NCBI RefSeq assembly: GCF_020991125.1
Contig: NZ_CP087715.1
Span: 558,001-622,000 of the forward strand
Direction of reading: 5' to 3'
From: Microbulbifer celer
GTDB lineage: Bacteria > Pseudomonadota > Gammaproteobacteria > Pseudomonadales > Cellvibrionaceae
Length of the DNA: 64,000 nt
The notes under the pieces are model-generated. The model ran no database searches. It saw only the letters and a list, made by a program, of their open reading frames with translations, and was not told where the DNA came from. How positions within the stretch are numbered: the stretch's first letter is position 1; each line of letters begins with the position of its first letter. Both the position numbers and the translations under genes were made by a program. Positions 49,849 to 64,000 of the stretch are shown here, piece by piece.

Positions 49849-50069
49849 AGGAAACGGTGGGTCCAGGTGGAAATTCAGAGGCAATGAATAAGGGGAAGGC
49901 GGGATTTTAATGTGCGGGGGCGGCTTTGCAACCGGCGGTGTCCGGATAGCGGTTCGCGCGCGGGGGTGGAGATGGTGATGCGTCGGCAAAAATGGGATGA
50001 AAATACTGCCACGGTCATGCTGGGGTCAGATTTGTCTTGATAATAGAGGTTCGTGCTGTACAATAATTA

Positions 50070-50092
50070 TTAATGATAATGGTTATCATTAA
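50070..50092. promoter_or_regulatory. Fur box
   Basis: TTAATGATAA-TGG-TTATCATTAA is an almost perfect palindrome and matches the Fur consensus (GATAATGATAATCATTATC) closely. It is 17 bases before the AraC gene start at 50109, so Fe-Fur should repress that gene, and possibly argS promoter elements on the other side are nearby. Confidence 0.85.
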
Positions 50093-50108
50093 GGCTAAGG
50101 ATCAAAAA

Positions 50109-51110
50109 ATGGATTTGTCAGGTCTCGAGCCCGTTGACTGCGCACCGTTCAGTGTTGCAGATCACTATCTGATGGAAAGGGGAAGTGAACAGGGAAAGTG
50201 GCACCGGGTGTCATTGCCGCCGGAAAAGGGGGCGACGGAATTTATCACCTGCCGTATCTGTGAGGATATCTCGCTTACACGCAGTCTCTGCACCTTTGTC
50301 AGTCCCTTCCTGTCTCGCGTGTGTTACCCGATGGACACCACCCTGCTGGTTTTCGGCTTCCGGGGGCGTAGCGCCATTGGCTTTTCCGAGGACGATCTCT
50401 CCCACGTGGTCAGGCCCGGCGACGTCTGGATGGTCAATACCGGAGGCGAGGCTCTGTACCGTTACACACCGGCGCACGACCTGAGTGAAATGGTGGTGAT
50501 CAAGTATGCCACCCGCCGAATCGGCTTCGTGTTCCCGCAACAGACGCGGGCCGTGCTTCGCGGTGACCGCCCGTGGATTGTGCGGCTGGGCTATCAGGAG
50601 TCCAACGACTCCTGGATATCCGATCTGCTGAACAACGGCTTTACCTCCTCACTGGACTGTCTGCGGGCGGAAGCCCGGGCCCTGGATGTGCTGGCGCGCT
50701 GGCTGCGGCCGCTGACCGATACGGTGGATGAGGCCCGTGTAGCCCCGGGTATCGAAGGGGACCCGCACCTGGAGCAGGCCATCCGCCTGCTCACAAGGGA
50801 TCTCGCGGCAACCCCTTCTCTGGAAGAACTGTCCCGGGTTCTGGGGATGAGCCACACCCGACTGAATCGCGCCTTCAAGCGCGCGTTTGGCAAAACCGTG
50901 TTCAGCTGGCTGCGGGACTATCGCCTCGCGCGCGCGCGCGCAGCATTGAAAGACGGTCACCGCAGTATTACGGATATCGCCTTTCAATGCGGTTTCAGTA
51001 GTGCCAGTCATTTTTCCCAATCGTTCAAACAGTGTTATGGCTGCACACCGGTGGAATTCCGCAGCAGCCGCAAATTGCAGGAAGTCTATTGTGAATATGG
51101 AACCCGCTGA
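50109..51110 (+). CDS. Iron-regulated AraC-family transcriptional regulator (PchR-like)
   Basis: 333 residues. N-terminal sensing region of about 220 residues and C-terminal double helix-turn-helix (SLEELSRVLGMSHTRLNRAF and SITDIAFQCGFSSASHFSQS) typical of AraC. Size and layout resemble PchR-type regulators that sense siderophores. AAGGA lies seven bases before the ATG at 50109; the upstream in-frame ATG at 50073 falls within the Fur box and is rejected. It overlaps the MFS gene start, so the two are cotranscribed and likely cofunction in iron or secondary metabolite export. Confidence 0.85.
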   Translation: MDLSGLEPVDCAPFSVADHYLMERGSEQGKWHRVSLPPEKGATEFITCRICEDISLTRSLCTFVSPFLSRVCYPMDTTLLVFGFRGRSAIGFSEDDLSHVVRPGDVWMVNTGGEALYRYTPAHDLSEMVVIKYATRRIGFVFPQQTRAVLRGDRPWIVRLGYQESNDSWISDLLNNGFTSSLDCLRAEARALDVLARWLRPLTDTVDEARVAPGIEGDPHLEQAIRLLTRDLAATPSLEELSRVLGMSHTRLNRAFKRAFGKTVFSWLRDYRLARARAALKDGHRSITDIAFQCGFSSASHFSQSFKQCYGCTPVEFRSSRKLQEVYCEYGTR

Positions 51111-52335
51111 GCGCCCGGCGCAGAAAGTCGGGCTGGGCCTGTTGCTCGCCATCCTGGTGGCCAATGGTGTCGCCCACAGTGTATTTGTCATTGCGATGCC
51201 GATTATCGGCCGTCAACTGGGTCTGGCCGACGTGCAGACCGGCGTGATCCTCACCGTTTCCGCCGTCGTCATGATGCTTGCCGCGCCCTCCTGGGGGCGC
51301 TACAGCGAACGGGCCGGGCGGCGCGCGGTGGTGGCGGCCGGTATTCTCGCGAGCGGGATTTTCCTGTTGGCGGTTGCCGGGGTGGTATTTCTGCGCCAGA
51401 GCCTGCTGCTCACGCTGCCGCTCACCTTTTGCCTGCTGTTCGGTTTGCGTCTGCTACAAGCGGTTGGTGTTGGCGGTGTGATGCCGGCTTCCCAGGCCTA
51501 CGTGGCGGATGCCACCGGGCGCGCAGCGCGGACACGTGGAATGGGCTTGATGGGGGCGGCTTTCGGGGCCGGAACCATTCTCGGAGGGGCTGCGGCGGCG
51601 ATACTCGGTCAGTGGGTGGCCGTACCGGGGCTACTGGGGCTGGGAGTACTGTTGCTGCTGGTATGGTGGGGGCTGTGTCGCCGTCTGCCGGAAATCCGGC
51701 AACCCGTGCCGGGTCGCATGGCGGAGCGGGGTGCGCTGCCCTACGCAACGCTGTGGCCCATGCTGTTGCTGACATTTTGCGCGCTGTTGATATACGGCAT
51801 GTTGCAACAGGTGATCGGGTTGCGCCTGCAGGATCAGTTCGGCTACAGCAGCGCCGAGGCGCTGCGCGCAACCGGAATCGCGATGATGTTGACCATGGCG
51901 GTGATGGTGATTGTGCAACTTGGGTTCCTGCGCTTCTTTGACTGGCCGGCGGTGCGCGTGCTGCGATGGGGTTGCAGCTTGTTGGTACTGGCGCTGATGT
52001 TGGCCACATTCAGCAACGGTTACGGTCAGTTGCTGATAAGCATGGTTTTGGTGGGGGGCGCGATGGGGTTGGTGTTCCCGGGTAATCTCGCTCTCCTGAG
52101 CCTGGCGGTGGGCGCGAATGCCCAGGGGCGCATTGCCGGTGTCAACGGCGTGAGCAAGGGGTTGGGCCTGGCGCTGGGGCCGGTGAGCGGCGCAGCGCTG
52201 CACCAGTTTTCTGTGTCGGCGCCGTTTGTGTTGGGAATAGTGCTGGCACTGGTCATGGTGCTGCTTGCCTTCTGGGGCTCCTACCCCGAGAAGGCGGGCA
52301 CTCTACTGGAATGCGACGGGGCAGGGCAGATCTGA
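51091..52335 (+). CDS. MFS efflux transporter, possibly a siderophore or metabolite exporter
   Basis: About 414 residues with 12 membrane helices and the MFS motif A region (GRYSERAGRRAVV) of the drug:H+ antiporter type. It starts inside the AraC gene: a GTG at 51091 sits six bases after AGGAAG; the ATG at 51097 is the alternative. Fur-box control through the operon and the regulator partner suggest export of an iron-binding product. Its 3' end overlaps the convergent acyl-CoA dehydrogenase by 33 bases. Whether it exports the product of the cluster at 52303-64000 is untested. Confidence 0.83.
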   Translation: MNMEPAERPAQKVGLGLLLAILVANGVAHSVFVIAMPIIGRQLGLADVQTGVILTVSAVVMMLAAPSWGRYSERAGRRAVVAAGILASGIFLLAVAGVVFLRQSLLLTLPLTFCLLFGLRLLQAVGVGGVMPASQAYVADATGRAARTRGMGLMGAAFGAGTILGGAAAAILGQWVAVPGLLGLGVLLLLVWWGLCRRLPEIRQPVPGRMAERGALPYATLWPMLLLTFCALLIYGMLQQVIGLRLQDQFGYSSAEALRATGIAMMLTMAVMVIVQLGFLRFFDWPAVRVLRWGCSLLVLALMLATFSNGYGQLLISMVLVGGAMGLVFPGNLALLSLAVGANAQGRIAGVNGVSKGLGLALGPVSGAALHQFSVSAPFVLGIVLALVMVLLAFWGSYPEKAGTLLECDGAGQI

Positions 52336-53487
52336 TTTGTAAACGTTCTGCGCCACAATATCGCGGTGGATTTCGGAGGTGCCGTCAATGATGCGATACA
52401 GACGCGCATCCCGGTAGAAACTCTCCACCAGGCTGTCCTCGTGGCAGCCGCTGCCGCCGAATATCTGCAATGCGCGATCGGCGACCCGTCCCAGGGTTTC
52501 TGTAGTAAATACCTTCACCGCGGAGATATCCGCGCGGATTGCCCGGTCTGTTGCGCCCGCAGCGGCATCTATGTTTACGGCTGTTTGCATCAACAGCGCG
52601 CGCGCCGCGGCGATTTCGATGGCGCTGTCGGCGATCATCTGTCGCACCGGGCCAAACTCTCCGATGGTTTTGCCGAACTGCCGGCGGTTTGTCGCATGTT
52701 GTTTCATCAGGTGCAACAGCCGCTGGCACTTGCCCACCGCACGTGCGCCGACCTTGGCCAGACGCGCTTTTCCCAGTGTATCGCCGAGCATCCTGAAACC
52801 GTTGTTCAGTTCTCCGAGCAGGGCTCCAGGGGGCAGTTCGATATCGTGAAACAGCAACTCCCGGTGGCTGGTCCCGCGGAAACCCATCATGTGGAACGTT
52901 TTTCCCAGCTCGAACCCGGGTAGATCCCTGTCGACCAGAAACAGGGAAATGCCGCGGGCCCCCAGGCCGGGCTCGGTGACCGCCGCGACGATAAAGAAAT
53001 CGCAGAATTCCGCATCACTGGTGAAATGCTTTGTGCCGGAGAGGCGCCAGCCATTGGTGGTTTTCTCGACGCGGGTGCGGATGGCAGCGGCATCGGAGCC
53101 CGCTTCCGGTTCCGATACCGCGAGGCCGCAGAAACGTTCGCCGCGGACACTGGGAAGCAGGTAGCGTTCGATCTGTTCCCCGCTTCCCGACGCCAGGCAC
53201 TCGTAAACATTTCCTCCTGCGCGGCGGGCGAGAATTTCCTTGGTGGCTCCCAGTTGCTCTTGCAGCAATATGTTTTCCACCGTGGAAAACCCCTGGCCGC
53301 CAAACTGTTTGCCGATATTGCCGGCAAACAAGCCCGCGACACGGGCTTTTTCCACAATGGTGTTTGAGACGCCAAGCGATAACCCGCGCTCCGTTTCAAG
53401 GCCTGCTTCCAGTGGCAGGAGTTCTTTTTTGACAAACAGGCGTGCCCGTTCGACCAGTTCCCGCTGCGATTGGCTGATGGGATTCAC
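52303..53487 (-). CDS. Acyl-CoA dehydrogenase-like flavoprotein
   Basis: 394 residues with the full acyl-CoA dehydrogenase fold: N-terminal helices, FAD-contact region (CGLAVSEPEAGSDAAAIRT), WRLSGTKHFTSDA, RRQFGKTIGEFGPVRQMIAD, and the C-terminal QIFGGSGCHEDS...RIIDGTSEIHR. The catalytic Glu of medium-chain enzymes (in YEGT) is Asp368 here. A GTG start at 53487 follows GGAG by nine bases. It is the last gene of the leftward operon, directly after the PigE-like gene. Expected role: making a 2,3-unsaturated acyl thioester, as TamP does for tambjamine, or oxidising another carrier-bound acyl group as PigA does. Confidence 0.88.
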   Translation of the reverse strand: MNPISQSQRELVERARLFVKKELLPLEAGLETERGLSLGVSNTIVEKARVAGLFAGNIGKQFGGQGFSTVENILLQEQLGATKEILARRAGGNVYECLASGSGEQIERYLLPSVRGERFCGLAVSEPEAGSDAAAIRTRVEKTTNGWRLSGTKHFTSDAEFCDFFIVAAVTEPGLGARGISLFLVDRDLPGFELGKTFHMMGFRGTSHRELLFHDIELPPGALLGELNNGFRMLGDTLGKARLAKVGARAVGKCQRLLHLMKQHATNRRQFGKTIGEFGPVRQMIADSAIEIAAARALLMQTAVNIDAAAGATDRAIRADISAVKVFTTETLGRVADRALQIFGGSGCHEDSLVESFYRDARLYRIIDGTSEIHRDIVAQNVYKSDLPCPVAFQ

Positions 53488-53506
53488 TGAGATTTGCTCC
53501 GTTCAA

Positions 53507-56017
53507 TTAATCCAGAAACGTCGACATGTCTCTACAGACATTGTCGAAAGCGAGAATGAACTGGGAGGCCTCCGCTTCGGTCAGCACCAACGGTGGCTGG
53601 ATACGCATGATGCGGTTGCTGTTGGCCGTCAGGAAGGTGAGGATGCCATGCTCTTGGGACAGCTTGCTGACGAAGCGCAGTACGAACATGTCCTGCATAC
53701 TGGATTCCAGTTCCGCAATGGCCTTGTCCAGGTGACGCTTGGCACTGTCCGGTAGCATGCGGTAGCTGCTGCGGGGGGTCCAGGGAAGACGGTGGGCGAG
53801 TTCCTGTACCGTGGATTCGATACTGCCCTCGAAAGACTGGCAGAATTCGATGGCCAGCATCAGCCCGCGTCCGCGCACCGCGTGTATGAAGGGGTACTGG
53901 GCGGCAATTTCACGCAGCGCGTCGAGCAACCGGGCGCCGACAAGCCGCGCATTTTCCGCGAGGTTTTCCTCCTCGATAACATCCAGTGTCGCCAGTGCCG
54001 TTGCCGCTGCCAGATTGCCGCCACCAAAGGTGGAGGTGTGCAGAATACAGCGGTCGATACTGCCGTAGGCCGTGTCCCAGAGCGTTGGCGAACACAGCGT
54101 TGCGCCGATGGGAATGGCGCCGCCGGACAGGGATTTCGACAGCACCAGAATATCCGGTACAACGTTTTCCCATTCGCAGCAGAACAGTTTGCCGGTGCGC
54201 CCCAGGCCCGTTTGCACTTCGTCGAGAATCAGCAGGGCGCCGTAGTGTGTGCACAGCCTGCGCACCTCACTCAGGTAACCGTCGGCCGGAACAATAGCCC
54301 CGCCTTCCCCCTGAATGGGTTCGATCACCAGCGCCCGCACATCGCCTCTGCGCAGTTCGGTTTCGAGAGATTCGAGACAACCGAACGGAATTTCGCTGCA
54401 CTGGGGCAGCAGTGGCTCGAAGGCATTGCGGTGCCGCTGGCGTCCGGTTACCGAGAGCGCGCCGAGGGTCTTGCCGTGGTAGCCGTTCTCGCAGTACAGC
54501 AGGCGCCCGCCGTCGGTGGCCGCCAGTGCGAGTTTGATGGCGGCCTCCACGGCCTCGGTGCCCGAGTTGCTGAAAAATACCCGCGACAGGTCGCCGGGAG
54601 CCAGCTGGCTCAGACGCTCCGCCAGCAGGGTGGTGTGGTAGGGCACGGAGACATACTGCACGAACGTCGGGTGTCCCGCTGTCAGGTATGCCTGGATGGC
54701 CGCGGTGACCTGGGGGTGATTGTGGCCGGTATTCAGGCAGCCGTAGCCGGCAACGAAATCCAGGTAGCGGGTGCCGTCCAGATCCGTCAACGTGCAGCCA
54801 CTGCCGGACTGGAAGACGCGCTCGCAGTGGTTGAACTGGTAGAACTCGGCAAGTAGCGGATTGATGTGGCGGCGGAAGCGCGCCAGGCTTGCTTCGCGTT
54901 GCTCCCCATGGTTCAACGCCATGGCACTTTGGTTACCGCTGCGGTGGTGTGGCTGCAGCTCGCGGTAGTGTTCGTCGCCGATGCGTTCGCCGCCACTGGC
55001 CATGGGACCGGTGGTAAATCCGTGTTTCTGCGCGAGTGCGCCGATTTCCAGCACCTTTTCCGGTGGCAGAACCCGGCCGAGGGAATAGTTGTCGCGGCGA
55101 CCTTCCAGGGACAGGATCAGGGTTTCCGCCAGGCAACCGTTCATAAACATTTTCGGGGCGAAGTTGCCGGCAGCCTCACCGAAACTGACTTCCGGCCCCG
55201 CGGATATCAGGCCACCGTCGATCAGCAGGATATCGCTGCGGACGCTCTGCACCGGTAGCACATCCCGCGGCAGGGCCGCATCCACCACCACACTGCCCGA
55301 TTGCAATTTGGCCGGGTCGATCACTCCCCCGGTGGAGGTGGCGGCGACGTAGAAACGGTGGGTGTCGTAGCAATCTTCCATGCGATTGCTCAGCCGGATG
55401 ATGGAGTGAAACGCCTGCGGGATATAGCCGAGAAGTTGTTCGCGTTTTTCAGCTCCCCCCCGGTGTACCAGCGTCAGGCGACAACCCTGTTCGAGAAGGA
55501 GCAGGGCAATTGCCAGCGCGATAGAGCCCGGAAACCCGACTACTGCCACTTCCGCGTCCGCCGGAGAAACGCCGAGCTTTTCCATGGCCTGCAACAGGTT
55601 CCGGTAGGCGGCGTAGGCGGTGAGGGAATTACCGGTGGTTACCGGGATCTTTACTTTTTCCGCAGTATTTACCCCGCGGTTGCCGACAATGCCGGTAAAA
55701 CCACCCAGACCGACGATCTCCGCCCCGCGCGCTTTCAGGTCTTCGATTCCCGCCTCCACGCGCCGCGCCACGGCGCGGGGGTCGGCCAGCATTTCCTCGG
55801 CAGTCAGCGGCATGTAGTCGACGATGCCACTGCAGCGGGCGCCGGTGCTGCTCACCACTTCATCCAGTGCGAAGAAGGGAACAAGGTTGCGCCACTGCCA
55901 CAGCTCCGGAGAAAAACCCCGGTCCTGTTCGCGAAAACTGCGCTCGGTCAGGTCGATCAATTTGGCGTGGCGTTTGAGACCCACCGACGTGGGGTGGGCG
56001 ATAAATCCGAATTTCAT
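53507..56017 (-). CDS. PigE/TamH-like fusion: acyl-thioester reductase + class III aminotransferase
   Basis: 836 residues. Residues 1-345 resemble cyanobacterial acyl-ACP reductase: FGFIAHPTS, GLGGFTGIV, VTTGNSLTAY, the NAD(P) motif VVGFPGS (159-165), and MNGCLAETLILSLEG, whose Cys295 aligns with the Cys that forms the acyl thioester there. Residues about 370-836 are a class III PLP aminotransferase (SNSGTEAVEAAIKLA, LILDEVQTGLGRTG) with Lys628 in VLSKSLSGG. This order and length match PigE of prodigiosin (reductase head, aminotransferase from about residue 370) and TamH of tambjamine. It should reduce an acyl or enoyl thioester to an aldehyde and transaminate an aldehyde. The ATG at 56017 follows GGGAAG; a GTG at 56062 would overlap the PigD-like gene. 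Confidence 0.85.
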   Translation of the reverse strand: MKFGFIAHPTSVGLKRHAKLIDLTERSFREQDRGFSPELWQWRNLVPFFALDEVVSSTGARCSGIVDYMPLTAEEMLADPRAVARRVEAGIEDLKARGAEIVGLGGFTGIVGNRGVNTAEKVKIPVTTGNSLTAYAAYRNLLQAMEKLGVSPADAEVAVVGFPGSIALAIALLLLEQGCRLTLVHRGGAEKREQLLGYIPQAFHSIIRLSNRMEDCYDTHRFYVAATSTGGVIDPAKLQSGSVVVDAALPRDVLPVQSVRSDILLIDGGLISAGPEVSFGEAAGNFAPKMFMNGCLAETLILSLEGRRDNYSLGRVLPPEKVLEIGALAQKHGFTTGPMASGGERIGDEHYRELQPHHRSGNQSAMALNHGEQREASLARFRRHINPLLAEFYQFNHCERVFQSGSGCTLTDLDGTRYLDFVAGYGCLNTGHNHPQVTAAIQAYLTAGHPTFVQYVSVPYHTTLLAERLSQLAPGDLSRVFFSNSGTEAVEAAIKLALAATDGGRLLYCENGYHGKTLGALSVTGRQRHRNAFEPLLPQCSEIPFGCLESLETELRRGDVRALVIEPIQGEGGAIVPADGYLSEVRRLCTHYGALLILDEVQTGLGRTGKLFCCEWENVVPDILVLSKSLSGGAIPIGATLCSPTLWDTAYGSIDRCILHTSTFGGGNLAAATALATLDVIEEENLAENARLVGARLLDALREIAAQYPFIHAVRGRGLMLAIEFCQSFEGSIESTVQELAHRLPWTPRSSYRMLPDSAKRHLDKAIAELESSMQDMFVLRFVSKLSQEHGILTFLTANSNRIMRIQPPLVLTEAEASQFILAFDNVCRDMSTFLD

Positions 56018-56052
56018 GTTGCTTCCCGGTTGTGGAACTGTTGTGGGCCGTT

Positions 56053-58518
56053 TTATCCGCACTCGGCTCGGTGCCAGGCGGATTCCGATAGCAGGCTGAG
56101 ACCGTCTCCATCTGAATCGTGCGCGATCAGCACTTCGGCGATATTCACCGCGCCGCGCCGTGTGATCATGGTGTGTAGATGCTGTGTGTCGCAGGTATTG
56201 AAGCGATGGTGGTATACCGGTACATCGCCACTGGATTGCACGAAATCACCGGTGTCCAGTCGCGCGGGCACCACCACCTGGCTGCCGTCTTTGCTCGAAC
56301 TGCGCGCGTCCAGATAGGTTCGAATCATCGACAGAACGCCATTACACAGATAAAAGAGGTTCACGCTGATGTGGTCGCGTCGCGGATTGTTAGCCAGCGC
56401 CTCTGCCAGCCGGTGGTGGATGTCAGGGACCAGGGCGCGGGCGCCGTCGCCGATGAACGCAAGTACATTGTGTCGGCTGGTGCGGGCGATGTAGGGCAGC
56501 GCGGACAGTGCATCGCCCATCAGCGCGCGCCCGTACCAGCCGGAAAACCCGGGATCCGTGCGCGGAATATTTCGCAGTGCGGAAAGGCCGCCGCGCCCCA
56601 CGTCATATACGCCGGTGTAGCGATAGTTTTCCTCTTGTATCAGGCGGTGAACCAGTTTTCCCATGTGCATGGTGAAATAGCTGGCAGACATGGGCAGGGT
56701 GTCGAGGTAGTCCACCGGCACCCCCTCTTCCATTTGCTGGACCTTGTGCAGTGCCTCTCGACGGAGCGCCAACACTTGTGGGTCCACGTCCAGCCGCTGC
56801 AGCACGGTATCGAGAAATTCGTTGAGGGAAAGTGACAGCGCAATATCGGTGAAAGGCGATATATGCGCGGTGTTTTTATTGACCTGCACAATCCGCAGGT
56901 TGCGCGCTAGTTTGCTGTCGGAAAATGGCGTGGCTGCCTGATCTATTTTGCTTTTCAGGAAAAAGAGACACTGGGATTCGACGTCGTGCAGCTTTCCGTT
57001 CTGGTGCAGAAAGTGATAGAGCCTGCGGCTGAAGGCGTAGACGCCACAGGCGCCCAGATAGTTTGGATTGGGGGTGCCGTCTTCGTAGGGAGAGACCGAG
57101 CCCGGGTGCGTCAGTGCATCTGCCAGACCGATCCCCGCGCGCTCCGCGATCTGGTAAACCTGTTTTCGCTGTGCGGCGGAGAGTGGGCCGCAGTACCACA
57201 GCAGGCGGGTGCGCGAGTGGTTGATGATTTCTACCGCCGCATCGATCTGTGCTTCCCGTTGTGAGTTGCCGGCCGCATCTGCTACAGCGGCGATGCGCGG
57301 AGCGGGTATTTCCAGCGCCACATGCTCCTTGCTTTCGAGTACGCCGGGTGTGGCAAAAATGAATACCGGCCCCGGCTCGTCCCGCAGCCGGGCCAGGGCG
57401 CGCCCCAGTTGCGCGGGGATGTCTTTGCGCTCGTGGATATAGAAATGGGGAATACCGCGCGCTGCGATTACCTGGCGTCCGTCCGTCTCGGGATCGAGCG
57501 TACCCTGGAAGGCGTACCAGGACTGTTCGGGGCTGTCGGCGCAGATGATCAGTCCCGGTGCGCGGGCTCTGTGGAGATTGGAGAGAGTGCCGCGAAACTC
57601 ATCGATCATGCCTGAGGTCACCGTGATGACGTAGGCCCTTTGGTATAGCTGCCATCCCGCCAGTGCGCCTGCGGCGAGGCTGTGTTCATTGTTGCCGGTC
57701 AGACAGCGGGGTGCCTGTGTAGTGGTGTCGTCACTGCTGAGGCGGTGCATAGAGCGGATGAAGTTGGCCACCATGGAGCCGGTGTAATAGTGGAAATCCC
57801 AGTGCGCCGGCCAGTTTGTCTGCATAAAGCCATAGATACCGGTGGCGAGCGCTACGGGATCATCAGCGGCTTTCAACGCGCGCGCCAGTATCTTATTCAG
57901 ATAGCAGAAATCCAGATGATCCAACAGCAGTTTGAGCAGGCCGGCGCGGTCCGTTTCCGGCATATTCCGATGAACCCGCAGCTTGATACTGCCGTCCACA
58001 TAGCCCAGCGCATCATCCAGTTCGCGCATGGGAATCAGCAGGTTTTTCGAGTGGGGTGACAGGCGGCTGACGCGGCAGTGACGACTGAGGACGGTGAAGG
58101 GATCCGGCGCGTCGTCGCGATGGGTATGGGGGAAGGGCACGCATTCGGTATCTACAAAGAAAATATCGAATGTCGCCGGGTTGGCGGTAAGCGTGCACAC
58201 GGCATCGTCCAGGCTGGTGTACTGCCGCAGGGAAAACGTGAAGCGGTTTTTTCTGCCAGTGTGCGAGAAAAACTGCCGGGCCTGGTGGCTGGTCGCGGAG
58301 AATAATTCTGCCTGGCTGCAGTTGCTGTAACCGGCATTCGCGTTCACGGTGTATTGCGCGCGCACTTCTGCGACCTCGCCCGTCGATGAAACACCAACCG
58401 TTTCACCCGAATCCTGGATGGCGTGCAGAAACGTCATCACCTGATCCAGGTCTTCGCGCAATAGCAATTTGTCCGAGACTACACAAATTCCGATTTCGTG
58501 GTTTTCGGTCCTGTTCAT
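56053..58518 (-). CDS. PigD-like thiamine diphosphate-dependent carboligase
   Basis: 821 residues, near PigD in size. The ThDP PYR domain has a Glu in CLTGNNEHSLAAGALAGW (Glu278), positioned as the cofactor-activating Glu. The PP domain holds the diphosphate/Mg motif GDG (690-692) followed about 30 residues later by CNG. The N-terminal ~200 residues are a separate domain, as in PigD-type enzymes. PigD decarboxylates pyruvate and adds the acetyl unit to carbon 3 of 2-octenal (a Stetter reaction). AAGGG precedes the ATG at 58518. Its position directly upstream of the PigE-like gene repeats the pigD-pigE order. The substrate chain length is unknown; other acyloin-forming ThDP roles are possible. 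Confidence 0.82.
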   Translation of the reverse strand: MNRTENHEIGICVVSDKLLLREDLDQVMTFLHAIQDSGETVGVSSTGEVAEVRAQYTVNANAGYSNCSQAELFSATSHQARQFFSHTGRKNRFTFSLRQYTSLDDAVCTLTANPATFDIFFVDTECVPFPHTHRDDAPDPFTVLSRHCRVSRLSPHSKNLLIPMRELDDALGYVDGSIKLRVHRNMPETDRAGLLKLLLDHLDFCYLNKILARALKAADDPVALATGIYGFMQTNWPAHWDFHYYTGSMVANFIRSMHRLSSDDTTTQAPRCLTGNNEHSLAAGALAGWQLYQRAYVITVTSGMIDEFRGTLSNLHRARAPGLIICADSPEQSWYAFQGTLDPETDGRQVIAARGIPHFYIHERKDIPAQLGRALARLRDEPGPVFIFATPGVLESKEHVALEIPAPRIAAVADAAGNSQREAQIDAAVEIINHSRTRLLWYCGPLSAAQRKQVYQIAERAGIGLADALTHPGSVSPYEDGTPNPNYLGACGVYAFSRRLYHFLHQNGKLHDVESQCLFFLKSKIDQAATPFSDSKLARNLRIVQVNKNTAHISPFTDIALSLSLNEFLDTVLQRLDVDPQVLALRREALHKVQQMEEGVPVDYLDTLPMSASYFTMHMGKLVHRLIQEENYRYTGVYDVGRGGLSALRNIPRTDPGFSGWYGRALMGDALSALPYIARTSRHNVLAFIGDGARALVPDIHHRLAEALANNPRRDHISVNLFYLCNGVLSMIRTYLDARSSSKDGSQVVVPARLDTGDFVQSSGDVPVYHHRFNTCDTQHLHTMITRRGAVNIAEVLIAHDSDGDGLSLLSESAWHRAECG

Positions 58519-58539
58519 AATTTCCCTTGTGACCGTTCG

Positions 58540-59628
58540 TTAGATAGTGTCTGGATCAATGGCGCCAGCGGCAATTAACAGCGCCTGCAACAGAAAAAAA
58601 TATCCCCACGCGGTCTCACCCAGCGTTTCCCCGCCGGCGGTTCCGCGAAAGCTGCAACCGAAAAAGCGGGCTTCGCCGCTGGATGTATTCCAGGAGAAGA
58701 AAGGGGAATCGAGCAACTGTTGCAAAAGTCGGGTGGCGCGATCGCGCCAGTGGTTGTCGCCCCCATCGAGTTTGTACATCGCGATGGCGGTAATCAGTGT
58801 GGCGGATGGGTCCGGTATTACCGGATCGCCGTCTTGCTGGCTGGGAGGAAAGTCCTGCCCGTGGCGCTGCCACCAGAGATCGCAGTGGCGCTCGGCCAGG
58901 TCGCGGTACTGCGAATCCCACAGCCGCGCCGCGGAGGCCAGGCCCAGCAGTCCCCAACTGTTCCCCCGCGCCCACTGGCCGGCGCGCCCCAGGGGGCGTG
59001 CGCCGGCCGTGTCGATGCTGGCATTGGTGTAAAAATTGCCGTCATCCGCCAACAGGTGCTGGGTGACACTGCGGGCATGGCGGCGCGCGCTGTCGCGCGT
59101 GTTCTCGTCGCCGTACTGGAGCAGGCGCAGAAGAGCGGCGAAGGCGTCGACGTTGAGTGTTCGGGGGCCGTTCGGCCCGCCGCCAAGCGCGCTTCCGAGA
59201 GGGTAAAAGGACAGCCGTTCATTGAAACTCTGGGCCAGGGCGCGGGCCGCGGCGGCGGCCAGTTCCCGACACGATGGATGGTTGAACAGGGCGATACCGG
59301 GCGCCGTCGCATACCAGAAGATCATGCTGCGAAACTGGGTGTCCTGGTGCAGTTTGGCGGCTAGTTGTCTGCAGATGGACAGCGCCCGTGCGCGGTCAGC
59401 GGCGCGCCCGCTCAGGTGTGCCTGCAGCCACCAGCATCCGCTCCAGAAACCGCCCATCCAGGAGCCGCCGGCAGACAGTTGCCACTGCGGATTGTGCTGC
59501 TCGCGGAACAGCGGCACCGCGTCGCCACAGTCCTCCGCCAGGCGCGACAGGTAGCGCCCGATGGCGCGGGCGCATGAGCGGGGCGCGGTGGCGGGTTTGG
59601 CGACGGTGGCTTGCGCGGAAGTGGTCAT
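58540..59628 (-). CDS. GH88/GH105-like (alpha/alpha)6-barrel protein
   Basis: 362 residues. GGSWMGGFWSGCWWLQAHLSG, LNVDAFAALLRLLQYG and WARGNSWGLLGLASAA recall unsaturated glucuronyl/rhamnogalacturonyl hydrolases (GH88/GH105), including an Asp in the segment where those enzymes keep a catalytic Asp. No signal peptide is evident. In a cluster otherwise devoted to acyl and ThDP chemistry it is out of place: it might remove a sugar from a glycosylated product, or be a non-hydrolytic member of the fold. It overlaps the MFS gene by four bases, so it is part of the operon. Confidence 0.7.
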   Translation of the reverse strand: MTTSAQATVAKPATAPRSCARAIGRYLSRLAEDCGDAVPLFREQHNPQWQLSAGGSWMGGFWSGCWWLQAHLSGRAADRARALSICRQLAAKLHQDTQFRSMIFWYATAPGIALFNHPSCRELAAAAARALAQSFNERLSFYPLGSALGGGPNGPRTLNVDAFAALLRLLQYGDENTRDSARRHARSVTQHLLADDGNFYTNASIDTAGARPLGRAGQWARGNSWGLLGLASAARLWDSQYRDLAERHCDLWWQRHGQDFPPSQQDGDPVIPDPSATLITAIAMYKLDGGDNHWRDRATRLLQQLLDSPFFSWNTSSGEARFFGCSFRGTAGGETLGETAWGYFFLLQALLIAAGAIDPDTI

Positions 59629-60857
59629 TGCGGCTGCGCCTCCCCGGGCAGGTTTCGGCGCAGATACTCAGCCAGCAAGCCACAAAGCAGGCCGCTGAGC
59701 ACGAGGAGGACCACCAGCCCGAGCCAGCCGCTGAGATAGCCGGAGTTGGCAGCCAGTTGTCCGAACAGCAGAGAACCGCACGCGAGGCCGGAGAAAAAGG
59801 CCGCGGACACCATCCCGGAGGCCTGGGTGACGGAGCCGAATTCCGGGCCCTTCACCAGCATGCCCATGGCGATGGCGTTGCTGGCAACGATGCTGAGACC
59901 GATGCCCGCCACGCCGGTGTAGAGCAACCACAGATGATCCGCTGCGACGGAGGCGGTGACGCAGACCGCTGCGACTGCGACGGCGACCAGAGTGAGCAGG
60001 CACAGCGCCTGGTTATCGAAGCGGGCGGCGATGGGAGTCAGAGCAATGCGGGACAACATGCCTGTCACCCCGAACAAAGTAACGAGCTGCGCCGCCTCCC
60101 GCGGGCCCAACCCCAGACTGATGCCGAACGCCGGCACGGCGGTCACATAGGCTGATAGCACCGCACCGATACAACCCTGGGCGAGCATCAACAGCACCAG
60201 CGGCCGATTGGGCGGCGCCAGACTCAGTTGTGCGCGGTGCGCGACGCGCGGTGGGGCGAGTGCGGCCGCCGCCAGTGCACCCAGCAGTGCTGCGGGCACC
60301 AGGGACAGAAAGGCCGCCCGCCAACTCCAGCCGGCGGCAATGACCGGCAGCACCAGCCCCGCGAACAGGGCTGCCAGTTGCACGCCGGACTGCTTCAGTC
60401 CCACCATGCCCGCCCGCTTTGCCGGGGGGATCCGCAGGGCGATCAACTGGTTGGTGACTGGATTGGCGGTGGCCTGGGAGAGGCCGCAGATCGCTACGCT
60501 GGCGACGAGCAATGGCAGTGAGTCGGCCCTGCTTATCAACAGAAAAGACAGTGCCACGGCAAAGAAATGCAGTGCGAAGCTGACCCTGAGTCCGAGCCGG
60601 TCGACAATGCTTCCCGCAAACAGCGATAGCAGTGCGGCGAGCCCAAACGAGGCCAGCACCAGATAACCGAGAGATTCGACTGCAACACCGAGATCCGCGG
60701 ACACGTAGGCGCCGAGACTGCCGGTAGCGTAGAGAATCAGCATCGGCAGGGCCATGGCCAGCAGTAGTACTGTACCAGTGGCGGACATCGCAAGCCCCTT
60801 TACGGGCCTTGGTGCCGGTGACTCCGCCCGGGCCGACGGCGATGGCGATGGGGGCAT
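59625..60857 (-). CDS. MFS transporter of the PigD/PigE-like operon
   Basis: 410 residues, 12 predicted membrane helices after a Pro-rich cytoplasmic start (PSPSPSARAESPAPRP). It resembles MFS_1 efflux proteins (GSIVDRLGLRVSFALH is the motif A loop). GAGG lies about nine bases before the ATG at 60857. Located inside the biosynthetic operon, with the adenylating enzyme 28 bases upstream and the GH88-like gene overlapping downstream, it probably exports the product or a precursor. Confidence 0.85.
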   Translation of the reverse strand: MPPSPSPSARAESPAPRPVKGLAMSATGTVLLLAMALPMLILYATGSLGAYVSADLGVAVESLGYLVLASFGLAALLSLFAGSIVDRLGLRVSFALHFFAVALSFLLISRADSLPLLVASVAICGLSQATANPVTNQLIALRIPPAKRAGMVGLKQSGVQLAALFAGLVLPVIAAGWSWRAAFLSLVPAALLGALAAAALAPPRVAHRAQLSLAPPNRPLVLLMLAQGCIGAVLSAYVTAVPAFGISLGLGPREAAQLVTLFGVTGMLSRIALTPIAARFDNQALCLLTLVAVAVAAVCVTASVAADHLWLLYTGVAGIGLSIVASNAIAMGMLVKGPEFGSVTQASGMVSAAFFSGLACGSLLFGQLAANSGYLSGWLGLVVLLVLSGLLCGLLAEYLRRNLPGEAQPQ

Positions 60858-60885
60858 AGTGTATTCCTCACTTCTCCGCGTGGTA

Positions 60886-62547
60886 TCAGATGGCCAGCGG
60901 CAGGGGTTCGCCGGCAGTGTCGCCGAGGGAGGCGGCGCCCGCCGCCAGCGCGCGTTTGTCCACCTTGCCTGCCGGCGTCATCGGTAATTGGCGATGGAAC
61001 TGCAGGTACTCAGGAAGCTTGTTGACTTCCAGTCCGCGGGATTTGAGGAACTCGCCCAGCTCGCGCAGTGACATGCGCTCTGCCCCCTCGCGCAGGGTCA
61101 GGCAGATACACACGCGCTGCCCCATTTCCGCGTCCGGCACCGGTACGCAGGCGACGCTGACGACGTCGGGATGCGCGGTGGCAGTCTGCTCGATCTGCAG
61201 CGGGCTGATATTGGAGCCTCCGCGGATGATGACGTCCTTTTTGCGTCCCAACAGGACCAGATTGCCCGCATCGTCGATGCGACCGAGATCGCCGGTATAC
61301 ACCCAGCCCTGTTCGTCGCGGTGACTGCGGTCCAGTTCCGGTGCGTTCACGTATTGCATTGGAGAGAGTGGGCCACGGCCGGCGATCTCGCCGATTTCGC
61401 CCCGGGGCAGGGGCTGGCGCTCGTCATCAACGATGCGGATGTCACAGACACTGGGGTTGGGTTTGCCGATAGACGCACTCAGTGTTTCCGGCGAGTCGTC
61501 CAGGGTGTGATGACAGTTGATTCCGTCGGCGGAGCCATAAAGGCCGATCAGTGGGCAGCCGAAAGCGCGCACGCAGCGGTCGCGGGTGGCGGTATCCATG
61601 GCCGCGCCTCCGCTTACCAGCGCGGTGAGGCACGACAGGTCCAGCTGCTGAAGTTCCGGCGCGACGGCCATGCGCTGAAACATGGTGGGTACGCCGAGGA
61701 TATGGGTAGGTTTGTGCTGTGCAATGGCGTCGATGGCCGCTTCCGCGCTGAATTCCGGCAGCACCACAATGGAGCCGCCCAGCCATGCGAGCACTCCACA
61801 GGTGGCGCTGGAGCCAAACGCGGTGCCCAGGGGCATCAGGTATAGGGCGCGAAATTCCTGTTCCGGCATTTTCATCCGCTCCAGGAAGCGGCCGCGTCCT
61901 CCCAGCAGGGCGTTGTGGGAATACGCCACCAATTTGGGCTCGGATTCGGTGCCGGATGAAATGAGGAAGCGCGCCGGGGCGTCCGCATTGACCGCTTCAG
62001 GTTCGGTGAGGGGGGCAGCCTGCAGCAGATCATCGAAGCTGCGCCAGGGGCCTGAATCCGGATTTTCGCCGTGTACCACCAGTACCCGCAGGGAGAGCGC
62101 CACGCGGCGCACGTCGTCGACAATCTCACAGTAGTCGATGTCCCGGTGACGCCGGTCCACGATCACGGCACGGGCGTCGGTGCGTTTCAGTACCGATTCC
62201 ATATCCAGCCGACCGCGACCCGCGGGCATAGGGCAGGCAATGGCACCGAGGGCCGCGCACGCCAGATCGATCGCGCACGACCGCCAGCTGTTGGCCATCT
62301 GGTAGACAACGACATCGCCGTTGACGATACCGAGCTCCTTGAAACTGCCGGCAATCCTTTCTGCTGCCTCCCGCAACTGCGCGTAGCTGGTAATGCCGTC
62401 GGGCTCCAGCACCGCCGGGGTATCCGGTAGGTCTCCCGCTTTGCTGCAGAACATTTGATACACACTGCGGTTAGGGTAGTAGCCCGCTTTTTTCCATTCT
62501 TCCCGAAGGGTAGCGGGAACGAGATCCAAAAGGCCGGTGTGGTTCAT
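60886..62547 (-). CDS. AMP-dependent acyl-CoA/acyl-carrier ligase (ANL family)
   Basis: 553 residues of the ANL superfamily. The phosphate-binding core motif is SSGTESEPKLVAYSH (197-211), a variant of the usual TSGTTGxPKG with Glu and Ser replacing Thr-Gly. YGSADG (A5-like), VYTGDLGRID (A7/A8) and RKKDVIIRGGSNISP follow, and the A10 Lys is Lys528 in PMTPAGKVDK. It resembles medium-chain or aryl-acid CoA ligases. In the operon it should activate the fatty acid that feeds the dehydrogenase and the PigE-like reductase, as TamT does for tambjamine. It overlaps the upstream CoA-transferase gene by four bases. Confidence 0.87.
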   Translation of the reverse strand: MNHTGLLDLVPATLREEWKKAGYYPNRSVYQMFCSKAGDLPDTPAVLEPDGITSYAQLREAAERIAGSFKELGIVNGDVVVYQMANSWRSCAIDLACAALGAIACPMPAGRGRLDMESVLKRTDARAVIVDRRHRDIDYCEIVDDVRRVALSLRVLVVHGENPDSGPWRSFDDLLQAAPLTEPEAVNADAPARFLISSGTESEPKLVAYSHNALLGGRGRFLERMKMPEQEFRALYLMPLGTAFGSSATCGVLAWLGGSIVVLPEFSAEAAIDAIAQHKPTHILGVPTMFQRMAVAPELQQLDLSCLTALVSGGAAMDTATRDRCVRAFGCPLIGLYGSADGINCHHTLDDSPETLSASIGKPNPSVCDIRIVDDERQPLPRGEIGEIAGRGPLSPMQYVNAPELDRSHRDEQGWVYTGDLGRIDDAGNLVLLGRKKDVIIRGGSNISPLQIEQTATAHPDVVSVACVPVPDAEMGQRVCICLTLREGAERMSLRELGEFLKSRGLEVNKLPEYLQFHRQLPMTPAGKVDKRALAAGAASLGDTAGEPLPLAI

Positions 62548-64000
62548 GAGAATCTCCAGGGTGGGGTGACACGAGTGTAAGAATCCGTATGCAAGTCGCC
62601 GTTAAAGTGCGATTGCTGCGGCAGATCGCGCAGATTTTCGATGACAAGGTTCCCGTATGCCTCTGCTAGTGGCGGTTCCAGCAGTGGCGTGTCCATACGG
62701 CAGGCGTGCAGGTGGGGCTGGCCAAGCAGTGTGGCTGCGCCCAACAGCGAGGTGTTTGCCTCACCGCCGCGGTGACAGAAACTCCTGCTCAACAAGCCCA
62801 GCAGCACGCCCTGGGCTGCGAGGATGCCGCCGAGCAGATCCAACGCGGTGAACAGGGTGCCGCCGCCGTGGCCTCCGGTGCGACCGATCAGGTCGGCCAG
62901 GCCAGAGTAGGCCTGCACCGTGAAATCTGTGCCGGGGATATCCAGCGCACCGTCCAGCTGTCCCCAGGCCCCGGCGTGGGTGTACACAAGGCCGGGACTG
63001 GCCGCGGCCAGCTGCCGGTAATCCAGCCCCAATTCTTCTGCTTTGCCCGGGGCCCAGTTGTGCAGGAACACCTGCGCATCAGAAACCAGCTCCACCAGTT
63101 GCGCGCGCCCGGCTGCGCTCTTGATGTCGATCTCAATCACTTCTTTGTGGTGATTGAGGGCGTCGAAGCGCGCGGAGCAATCCGCCACCAGTGGCGGCAT
63201 ACCCCGCAATGGATCCCCGCCGGGTGGCTCTATGCGGATGACCCGCGCGCCGAGCAGGCTCAGCAGGTGTCCTGCCATCGGGCCCTGAATACGGCGGCAG
63301 GATTCCACCACCGTCAGTCCGCTCAGGGGCAGATCCTGCCCGCGGGGCGGCGGCAGTGGTGTATCGGTCGGCGTTGCCGGATGCAACTGCCAGGGGCCTG
63401 ATTGCAGCAGTTCCTCGACGTCGCTGTCGCGCGCGCGCTCCTCAATGGTGCGCTGTCGGCACAGGGCGACACCGGCCTCACTGCAGATGCGAGTGACCTG
63501 GGCGAAGCTCAGTTTCGCCAGACGCTTGTGCAGGCGTTCGGGCAGCGGACAGATACCTTTGGCATAGCGCTGCAGGAAGGACTGCCAGCCTCTGCCTGCT
63601 TCCACCGGTTCCAGTCCCAGCGCGTCGCACAGCCGGCGCCAGGGATCGGCGGAAAGCGTTTCCAGCTCGAAGCGCACGCCGTCCGCGGATCGGAACGGCG
63701 GCCGCAGCCCCGCGTCGTGGTGCCCGGGCAGGATTTCCTCCGCATCTTCCCCGGTGGTCGCACCGGCGAGGTACTGACCGGCGCAGAGCAACCCGGCGGA
63801 CGCCATGGATACCCGGCTGCGGGAAATGCCCAGGCCGCGGCGGCGTGCCAGAGCCGTTGCGAGGCAGGCCTGGAGTGCCAGCGTTGCGGAGACGGTAGAC
63901 AGGTAGGGCAGTGGAATCGGCTGAGCCTTACCTGTTGCCCGGCCGTGCACCGACATCAGTCCGGTAGCCGCCTGCAGGGTAGTTTCACAACCGGCGCGCT
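62544..64000 (-). CDS. Tandem family III (CaiB/BaiF) CoA-transferase, N-terminus outside window
   Basis: The frame is open to the right edge, so this is a 5'-truncated gene of at least 485 residues; an ATG at 63956 is internal. The first visible part (LQAATGLMSVHGRATG, LALQACLATALARRRG) is the second half of a CaiB-type module, ending in a typical C-terminal helical segment. A second module begins at SGLTVVESCRRIQGPMAGHL with the RIEPPGGDPLRG CoA-binding loop and an Asp in TALDLLGG that aligns with the catalytic Asp of formyl-CoA transferase. At the same place the first module appears to have Ser. The protein should move CoA between carboxylic acids, or isomerise an acyl-CoA, in the same pathway as the ligase. 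Confidence 0.78.
   Translation of the reverse strand, partial: RAGCETTLQAATGLMSVHGRATGKAQPIPLPYLSTVSATLALQACLATALARRRGLGISRSRVSMASAGLLCAGQYLAGATTGEDAEEILPGHHDAGLRPPFRSADGVRFELETLSADPWRRLCDALGLEPVEAGRGWQSFLQRYAKGICPLPERLHKRLAKLSFAQVTRICSEAGVALCRQRTIEERARDSDVEELLQSGPWQLHPATPTDTPLPPPRGQDLPLSGLTVVESCRRIQGPMAGHLLSLLGARVIRIEPPGGDPLRGMPPLVADCSARFDALNHHKEVIEIDIKSAAGRAQLVELVSDAQVFLHNWAPGKAEELGLDYRQLAAASPGLVYTHAGAWGQLDGALDIPGTDFTVQAYSGLADLIGRTGGHGGGTLFTALDLLGGILAAQGVLLGLLSRSFCHRGGEANTSLLGAATLLGQPHLHACRMDTPLLEPPLAEAYGNLVIENLRDLPQQSHFNGDLHTDSYTRVTPPWRFS

Follow-up and report, generated by a model that had tools for sequence, protein, structure and literature searches.

Which pathway makes use of a PigD- and PigE-type enzyme pair that is encoded outside a prodigiosin cluster? 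This question is raised by a locus of Microbulbifer celer located in the last part of a 64,000-nucleotide stretch of DNA (contig NZ_CP087715.1, positions 558,001 to 622,000; hereafter the window). A preliminary description of the window had noted a thiamine diphosphate (ThDP) enzyme next to a reductase-aminotransferase fusion in a leftward gene cluster, and had proposed a possibly new route to an alkylpyrroline or related product. Gene content, conserved residues, gene order, insert site and co-occurrence in relatives, presented below, make it probable that the locus is a horizontally acquired, pdt-type thiocarboxylate metallophore cluster which includes a PigD/PigE alkylpyrroline branch and has two outputs. 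Genomes and loci are designated by G and L numbers, respectively, the window genome being G000.

The PigD/PigE pair and the neighbouring thioacid genes

With 1373 bits, the fusion protein passes the cut-off of the NCBIfam PigE model NF053554 (850), and its residues 16-851 match chain 4PPM of the Protein Data Bank (PDB) with an E-value of 7e-287. This entry, titled 'Aminotransferase', is taken to be PigE itself. Both PigE Cys310 and the pyridoxal phosphate (PLP) lysine, Lys643, are kept in all eight aligned sequences. The ThDP enzyme matches the PigD model NF053552 only, with 662 bits and thus below the cut-off of 950; the same model yields 671 bits at one Pseudomonas locus and 691 in Hahella ganghwensis, compared to 1259 and 1383 for two PigD proteins of the prodigiosin clade. 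Among loci which, like the present one, carry thiocarboxylate (thioacid) genes, all three PigE proteins tested (window, L034:12456-14960 and L037:12028-14565) lie far above the NF053554 cut-off and all three PigD proteins tested fall below theirs. Enzymes of thioacid loci can also pass the curated PigE model of prodigiosin, so that their genes may be labelled as prodigiosin enzymes. In phylogenetic trees, 12 PigE proteins of thioacid loci are split from 11 others, and 12 PigD proteins from 12 others (100/100 in each case; long branches were noted). The window PigD falls into one clade with the thioacid-locus PigD of Hahella and Pseudomonas (100/100) and is 91% identical to that of M. harenosus (G078). 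Family searches and trees hence uphold the original naming of the pair.

Its position outside a prodigiosin context was likewise borne out. A PigC query against the host genome, a single contig of 4.35 Mb, returned only partial matches with 35% identity, which we infer to be of the PEP (phosphoenolpyruvate) synthase type. Since the genome holds no PigC-like gene past these partial matches, a prodigiosin cluster beyond the window edge was rejected. Among the open reading frames (ORFs) of L009, the genome continuation past the window, no prodigiosin gene was recognized (L010 was viewed as an ORF list only); thioacid genes were found there instead.

The seven tightly packed leftward genes of the preliminary description, including fusion and ThDP enzyme, were confirmed by their ORF positions, with intergenic gaps of at most 28 bases (35 with the first ATG, 56017, as the start of the fusion). 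They represent an incomplete cluster, which additionally comprises an AraC and a major facilitator superfamily (MFS) gene on the left (50073-52335) and, to the right of 64000, five whole genes and the rest of the CoA-transferase gene (Table 1). Because the sulfur carrier, JAMM and MoeB-rhodanese genes lie past base 64000, the nature of the cluster is not visible in the window. ORF calling had masked some genes behind antisense ORFs, and several came up only in later scans.

At the centre of the thioacid module, an acyl-CoA ligase adjoins a type III CoA-transferase with a conserved motif aspartate (Asp457 in PGTDF), and a sulfur carrier ending in GG, a JAMM protease and a MoeB-type activator are all present. 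The JAMM signature and the MoeB and rhodanese cysteines are in place as well; together with the carrier GG and the CoA-transferase aspartate, the latter assigned by motif, these are presumed to be the catalytic positions. In all five carriers aligned, the terminus is an uncapped GG. The CoA-transferase is covered by two Pfam stretches, of which the C-terminal domain is clear, yet this domain lacks 17 and 45 residues found in the enzyme of the congener G108. In G132 (L026:11635-15246), CoA-transferase and AMP-ligase form one 1203-residue fusion within a thioacid cluster devoid of PigD/PigE. By family, homologues of PdtF, PdtG, PdtH, PdtI and PdtJ, described in the accessible part of the source as E1-rhodanese, JAB, ThiS/MoaD-like, CaiB-like protein and AMP-ligase, respectively (PMC1779556), are present together in the M. 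celer cluster.

In the preliminary description, ligase and CoA-transferase had been regarded as activating a fatty acid for PigD and PigE. Such a linear route without sulfur, in which the dehydrogenase would form the enoyl ester and PigD/PigE the pyrroline, would agree with the co-directional, closely packed genes and with the match of the dehydrogenase (termed 'A' below) to ordinary acyl-CoA dehydrogenases of solved structure. It is nevertheless very unlikely, since genes for sulfur carrier, JAMM and MoeB-rhodanese come next in the same orientation and accompany ligase and CoA-transferase in other loci, and since Hahella sp. HN01 and G132 possess the latter two along with sulfur genes and without adjoining PigD/PigE. 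The ligase is 55-69% identical to CoA-transferase-adjoining ligases in H. ganghwensis, G108, Pseudomonas, HN01 and G132. Prodigiosin-type loci, in contrast, gave no CoA-transferase match and ligase matches of 21-27% only. Both enzymes are assigned to the thioacid module.

At an E-value of 1e-60, MoeB-rhodanese was detected in 32 of 144 family genomes. Within the genus it is confined to G000, G078 and G108 plus a weaker, different locus in G103, and it was thus rejected as a housekeeping gene. The G103 locus (L032:2472-9384), inspected by eye, contains ORFs similar in size to an MMPL transporter gene and a LolA-like gene of G108 (see below). They stand close to a gene of MoeB type, a small ORF of the length of a carrier and a large one resembling a ketosynthase; this is perhaps another sulfur-carrier pathway.

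Table 1. Genes and operator of the insert in window coordinates; positions past 64000 are L009 positions + 61999
Feature	Position	Strand	Evidence and remarks
Fur-box-like operator	50069-50093	.	upstream of AraC gene; 16/19 to consensus
AraC-type regulator	50073-51110	+	Pfam HTH_18 8e-26; leftmost insert gene; true start probably 50109
MFS transporter 1	51001-52335	+	Pfam MFS_1 1e-47
Acyl-CoA dehydrogenase 'A'	52303-53487	-	Pfam; identities, tree, genome search
PigE-like thioester reductase-aminotransferase fusion (PdtM by position)	53507-56062	-	NF053554
PigD-like ThDP enzyme (PdtL by position)	56053-58518	-	NF053552 below cut-off; tree
GH88-fold (alpha/alpha)6 protein	58540-59628	-	structure model; no Pfam match
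MFS transporter 2	59625-60857	-	Pfam MFS_1 3e-30; relatives in other thioacid loci
AMP-dependent acid-CoA ligase, thioacid cassette (PdtJ/PtmA3 role)	60886-62547	-	Pfam AMP-binding
Type III CoA-transferase, 583 aa, thioacid cassette (PdtI/PtmU4 role)	62544-64295	-	Pfam CoA_transf_3, 2 stretches; crosses window end 64000
Sulfur carrier, 90 aa	64488-64760	-	Pfam ThiS 3e-18; uncapped GG end
JAMM protease	64835-65245	-	Pfam Prok-JAB 2e-27
MoeB-rhodanese	65271-66476	-	Pfam ThiF + Rhodanese
TonB receptor	66657-68666	+	Pfam TonB receptor barrel
O-methyltransferase	68673-69692	+	Pfam Methyltransf_2 6e-13; right end of insert

Insert site, regulation and distribution

The distance between argS and the exonuclease gene on the right of the insert, taken as sbcB, amounts to 20,060 bases in M. 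celer, compared to 146-185 bases in all seven single-contig congeners chosen. Homology of the flanks to five empty sites ends on both sides of the insert, which spans about 20 kb and 14 genes, from AraC through methyltransferase. Its G+C content is 0.61, with 0.56 in the left and 0.59 in the right flank. In G108, the cluster is situated about 7 kb away from an intact argS-sbcB pair, and PigE and PigD group with those of H. ganghwensis and not with the window proteins (100/100 support). This separate location, in combination with the grouping, points to horizontal acquisition of the cluster. The G108 cluster is followed by genes for an MMPL transporter and a LolA-like protein (L018:5778-8902).

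The Fur-box-like site, scored against a Fur consensus, is the best in 82 kb, the best of each of ten shuffles reaching 13-14. Comparable sites precede the AraC gene in M. harenosus (score 16; AraC 96% identical to the window copy) and in H. ganghwensis (15), where the AraC gene (L034:17536-18538) appears as two adjacent ORFs of a draft assembly. No site scoring at least 14 was detected upstream of the G108 AraC gene (61% identity) or anywhere in the Pseudomonas loci scanned, and a search of L009 with up to three mismatches found none. Fur-like scores can arise by chance, since a score of 15 in G132 falls inside the carrier gene. AraC and probably also Fur are proposed to control the cluster.

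In order to survey relatives, contigs were scanned with exact peptide patterns from the PigD alignment, a procedure that misses divergent relatives; 76 stretches matched and 22 loci were kept. Ten of these, from M. harenosus, H. ganghwensis and eight Pseudomonas, carry PigD and PigE together with thioacid genes. Ten of the other 12 are prodigiosin-type by gene layout, the presence of PigC being supported by NCBIfam for Hahella sp. HN01 alone, and the loci of M. halophilus and Streptomyces fall outside both groups. HN01 contains a prodigiosin cluster with PigD/PigE and PigC (L048) and, apart from it, a thioacid core lacking the PigD/PigE pair (L065:2723-14430). In M. halophilus (L019:12159-19425, equivalent to L053), PigD/PigE of the prodigiosin clade stand beside an arginine decarboxylase, with neither a thioacid gene nor a prodigiosin layout seen nearby, possibly representing a further PigD/PigE context. 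The Streptomyces melanogenes locus (L054) harbors a very divergent PigD-like ORF on a long tree branch.

All 14 genes are found in H. ganghwensis, in the order and orientation of the window, and the same 14 occur in the same order in M. harenosus; G108 has 13, no TonB gene having been found there. In each of the 18 thioacid loci read that contain PigD, the PigD/PigE pair borders on the thioacid genes; the two gene sets share a strand in 17 loci and lie on opposite strands in G399. Within the genus, PigD (E-value 1e-30) is restricted to G000, G078, G108 and G077, and class-wide samples contained PigD and the GH88-fold protein in 1 of 369 genomes each, solely that of the window. The plasmid collection yielded six PigD records, of which the one opened has an annotation layout resembling a prodigiosin cluster, and two CoA-transferase records, of which the one opened shows a stretch without annotated features.

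Among 348 Pseudomonas genomes, PigD was detected in 17 (E-value 1e-50) and the GH88-fold protein in 18 (1e-20), with 16 in common (hypergeometric p 1.7e-24, overstated in that related species are counted as independent). Gene context was read in 11 of these 16 (G145, G146, G147, G149, G150, G163, G393, G399, G408, G482 and G491); in G189, G281, G311, G334 and G419, both genes share a contig, at a distance of about 11-12 kb. In G359 and G425, which lack PigD, the GH88-fold match is distant and lies in another gene context, with 27% identity for the ligase and 33% for the dehydrogenase. G283 carries a thioacid-type PigD/PigE pair beside a PLP-dependent decarboxylase (PF00282; L080:10651-15617); the 20 kb read here contain no thioacid gene. 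L085 and L086 comprise 14 genes each, in the order AraC, TonB receptor, methyltransferase, MFS, PigD, PigE, MoeB-rhodanese, JAMM, carrier, CoA-transferase, ligase, dehydrogenase, MFS and GH88-fold. In G399 (L081), receptor, methyltransferase, MFS, PigD and PigE occupy one strand, and JAMM, carrier, transferase, ligase, dehydrogenase, MFS and GH88-fold the other. The TonB receptor gene is placed outside the regulator in G408, and none was present in the stretches read of G163 and G482. Pfam supports the MFS, methyltransferase, TonB receptor and AraC labels of the Pseudomonas genes; the TonB receptor of the M. celer cluster scores 121 bits against the siderophore receptor model TIGR01783, below its cut-off of 223.5.

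The clusters differ in their dehydrogenase. Type 'A' occurs in the marine clusters (G000, G078, G108 and H. ganghwensis), with mutual identities of 62-96%, and type 'B' in the loci of Pseudomonas, HN01 and G132, with 52-56% identity between the three groups; identity of A to B is 27-33%. A query with HN01 'B' against the four marine genomes gave nothing above 34%, the best match in G000 being 33% and the cluster dehydrogenase about 30%. With 'A' in place of 'B', the clusters may differ in the acid that is thiolated or in where the enoyl ester comes from. HN01 and G132 combine the thioacid core and 'B' with MFS, GH88-fold and TonB receptor genes, without adjoining PigD/PigE. A methyltransferase relative was found in all four marine loci and not in the stretches read of HN01 and G132.

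The GH88-fold protein was modeled with a predicted local distance difference test (pLDDT) value of 85 and resembles 2fv0 and 1vd5 with a template modeling (TM) score of 0.79. The position of Asp88 of unsaturated glucuronyl hydrolase (UGL) is taken by Ser101, and Asp149, which we take to be the second GH88 catalytic residue, is kept as Asp161 (each in 8/8 aligned sequences). The serine led to rejection of a role as a sugar enzyme; the protein has probably been re-purposed. It constitutes a recurring, unexplained component of these clusters.

Predicted products

In the thiocarboxylate branch, MoeB-rhodanese would load sulfur onto the GG end of the carrier, with the JAMM protease assisting in some way, given that uncapping is unneeded for a carrier already ending in GG. 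The ligase would form the CoA ester of a carboxylic acid, and the CoA-transferase would exchange CoA for sulfur to give a thiocarboxylic acid, pyridine-2,6-dithiocarboxylic acid (PDTC) or a relative. This compound may be exported by MFS and re-imported through the TonB receptor, under control of AraC and probably also Fur. In the second branch, dehydrogenase 'A' or ordinary fatty-acid metabolism would provide a 2-enoyl thioester, the PigD-like enzyme would add pyruvate-derived acetyl at the beta carbon, and the PigE-like enzyme would reduce the thioester and transaminate, with ring closure leading to a 2-methyl-3-alkyl-1-pyrroline. The preliminary description had named the same likely product, which is supported here; its order of enal formation before acetyl addition has been revised in print, as PigD acts on the enoyl thioester and PigE then reduces and transaminates, with ornithine and arginine as likely amino donors (PMC8341465). 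The ring skeleton of 2-methyl-3-alkyl-1-pyrrolines is that of the PigE product (PMC8341465).

Both compound types are in print for relatives. As far as the accessible parts of the sources extend, Pseudomonas F113 makes PDTC derivatives and 3,4-dihydro-5-methyl-4-alkyl-2H-pyrroles (PMC7415375), and wheat root extract raises both families (PMC7415375, PMC7911646). Compounds 27, 28 and 30-32 came solely from F113, the lone strain of four listed with pdt, and P. putida DSM 3601, the source of pyrrolines described in 1986 (PMC7415375), is named in the title of a PDTC-zinc study given in reference lists. The chains C11, C13:1 and C15:1 equal C14, C16:1 and C18:1 acyl minus three carbons, as amyl of 2-methyl-3-amylpyrrole (MAP) derives from C8, and would be the PigD/PigE output expected from ordinary fatty acids. 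Since gene content and order fit the pdt cluster and alkylpyrrolines with the predicted ring skeleton were already published in 1986 (by a title cited in PMC7415375), a wholly new pathway was too strong a claim.

The F113 cluster appears in the accessible parts of the sources as pdtCKPELMFGHIJON, a string of 13 letters with which 14 locus tags are listed (PMC3570484, PMC7415375). In the Pseudomonas loci (e.g. L036, L083-L086), PigD and PigE alone sit between MFS and MoeB-rhodanese, as L and M do between E and F, which suggests by position that L is PigD and M is PigE. The letters C, K and E presumably denote regulator, receptor and permease.

Several points weigh against a pdt-type cluster with an alkylpyrroline branch. 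The likeness to pdt concerns gene families and order, set against published names and not against proven pdt sequences (P. stutzeri KC, F113); L and M are matched by position alone, and the F113 tags outnumber the letters by one. Pseudomonas AraC, TonB receptor and methyltransferase are 21-29% identical to their M. celer counterparts wherever there is a match, and for the MFS preceding PigD in the scanned Pseudomonas loci no match was obtained. Without dehydrogenase 'B', PDTC itself is not assured for the window variant. In the accessible part of PMC7415375, F113 yielded PDTC derivatives only, PDTC itself not being detected, and compounds 25, 26 and 29 of the same network came from all four strains, three of them without listed pdt. 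The bare-GG carrier leaves the JAMM protease no cap to remove, whereas the thioplatensimycin study (Dong et al. 2018) points to capped carriers (PMC6006322). PtmA3/PtmU4 thioacid chemistry, PigD/PigE chemistry and the joint occurrence of both metabolite types are described for relatives, and the metabolite assignment for the window strain follows from genes and analogy to these; production by this strain, the identity of the thiolated acid and the roles of GH88-fold protein and methyltransferase are what we infer from them.

The close association of both gene sets could alternatively reflect one hybrid product, an alkylpyrroline joined to or bearing the thiocarboxylate and acting as a lipid-tailed N,S metal chelator. 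The invariable proximity of PigD/PigE to thioacid genes, mostly on the same strand, the GH88-fold protein in 16 of 17 PigD-bearing Pseudomonas genomes and the distribution of the methyltransferase would suit this idea. It is quite unlikely, however, as F113 and DSM 3601 are reported, in the source parts available, to give PDTC-type compounds and free alkylpyrrolines separately, and as the two gene sets lie on opposite strands in G399. That PigD/PigE form the ring scaffold of the thiocarboxylate itself, with no lipid pyrroline, is extremely improbable: they share the cluster and the insert has no other obvious ring-forming enzyme, yet HN01 and G132 have the thioacid core without adjoining PigD/PigE. 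Moreover, dipicolinate has a linear C7 chain, which beta-acetylation does not yield.

The preferred assignment, a thiocarboxylate metallophore cluster with a separate alkylpyrroline output, would give the 2-methyl-3-alkyl-1-pyrrolines, described from Pseudomonas in 1986 and once more in 2020-2021, a genetic origin that is open to direct testing; the later papers, in their accessible parts, name no genes for them. On this view, PigD/PigE chemistry would belong to a metallophore cluster and not to a pigment. New here are the gene-metabolite link and the marine variant with another acyl-CoA dehydrogenase; a search for open-access papers joining 'PigD' with 'thiocarboxyl' found none, most subscription journals and supplements being outside its scope. 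It is rather doubtful, though conceivable, that the marine variant produces a novel metallophore of the thiocarboxylate type to which the alkylpyrroline is attached or with which it cooperates. Such a lipid-tailed N,S chelator might be anchored to the cell surface.

Comparison with known systems

The GH88-fold protein has in common with GH88 unsaturated glucuronyl hydrolase the (alpha/alpha)6 fold and the Asp149 position, and differs from it in the invariant serine at the Asp88 position and in its metabolic context. As in the prodigiosin PigD-PigE branch, PigD and PigE homologues are adjacent and PigE passes the NCBIfam cut-off with its residues conserved; in contrast to that branch, the window PigD stays below its cut-off in a separate clade, PigC is absent and the neighbours are different.

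With the PtmA3-PtmU4 cassette of thioplatensimycin (also QbsL/K and YtkG/F), the locus shares a ligase beside a type III CoA-transferase with the conserved aspartate and a sulfur-carrier system. Here, however, the carrier system lies in the cluster, its carrier is uncapped and PigD/PigE are added, whereas the carrier genes of the platensimycin producer are located elsewhere.

F113 pdt, as far as the accessible sources describe it, corresponds in sulfur carrier, JAMM, MoeB-rhodanese, CaiB-type transferase and AMP-ligase (PdtH, G, F, I and J), all matched here. Regulator, receptor, MFS, methyltransferase and dehydrogenase genes are likewise present, and slots L and M are filled by PigD and PigE in the Pseudomonas loci read. 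The window departs from it in the order of gene blocks, in dehydrogenase 'A' instead of 'B' and in a weakly related AraC, TonB receptor and methyltransferase.

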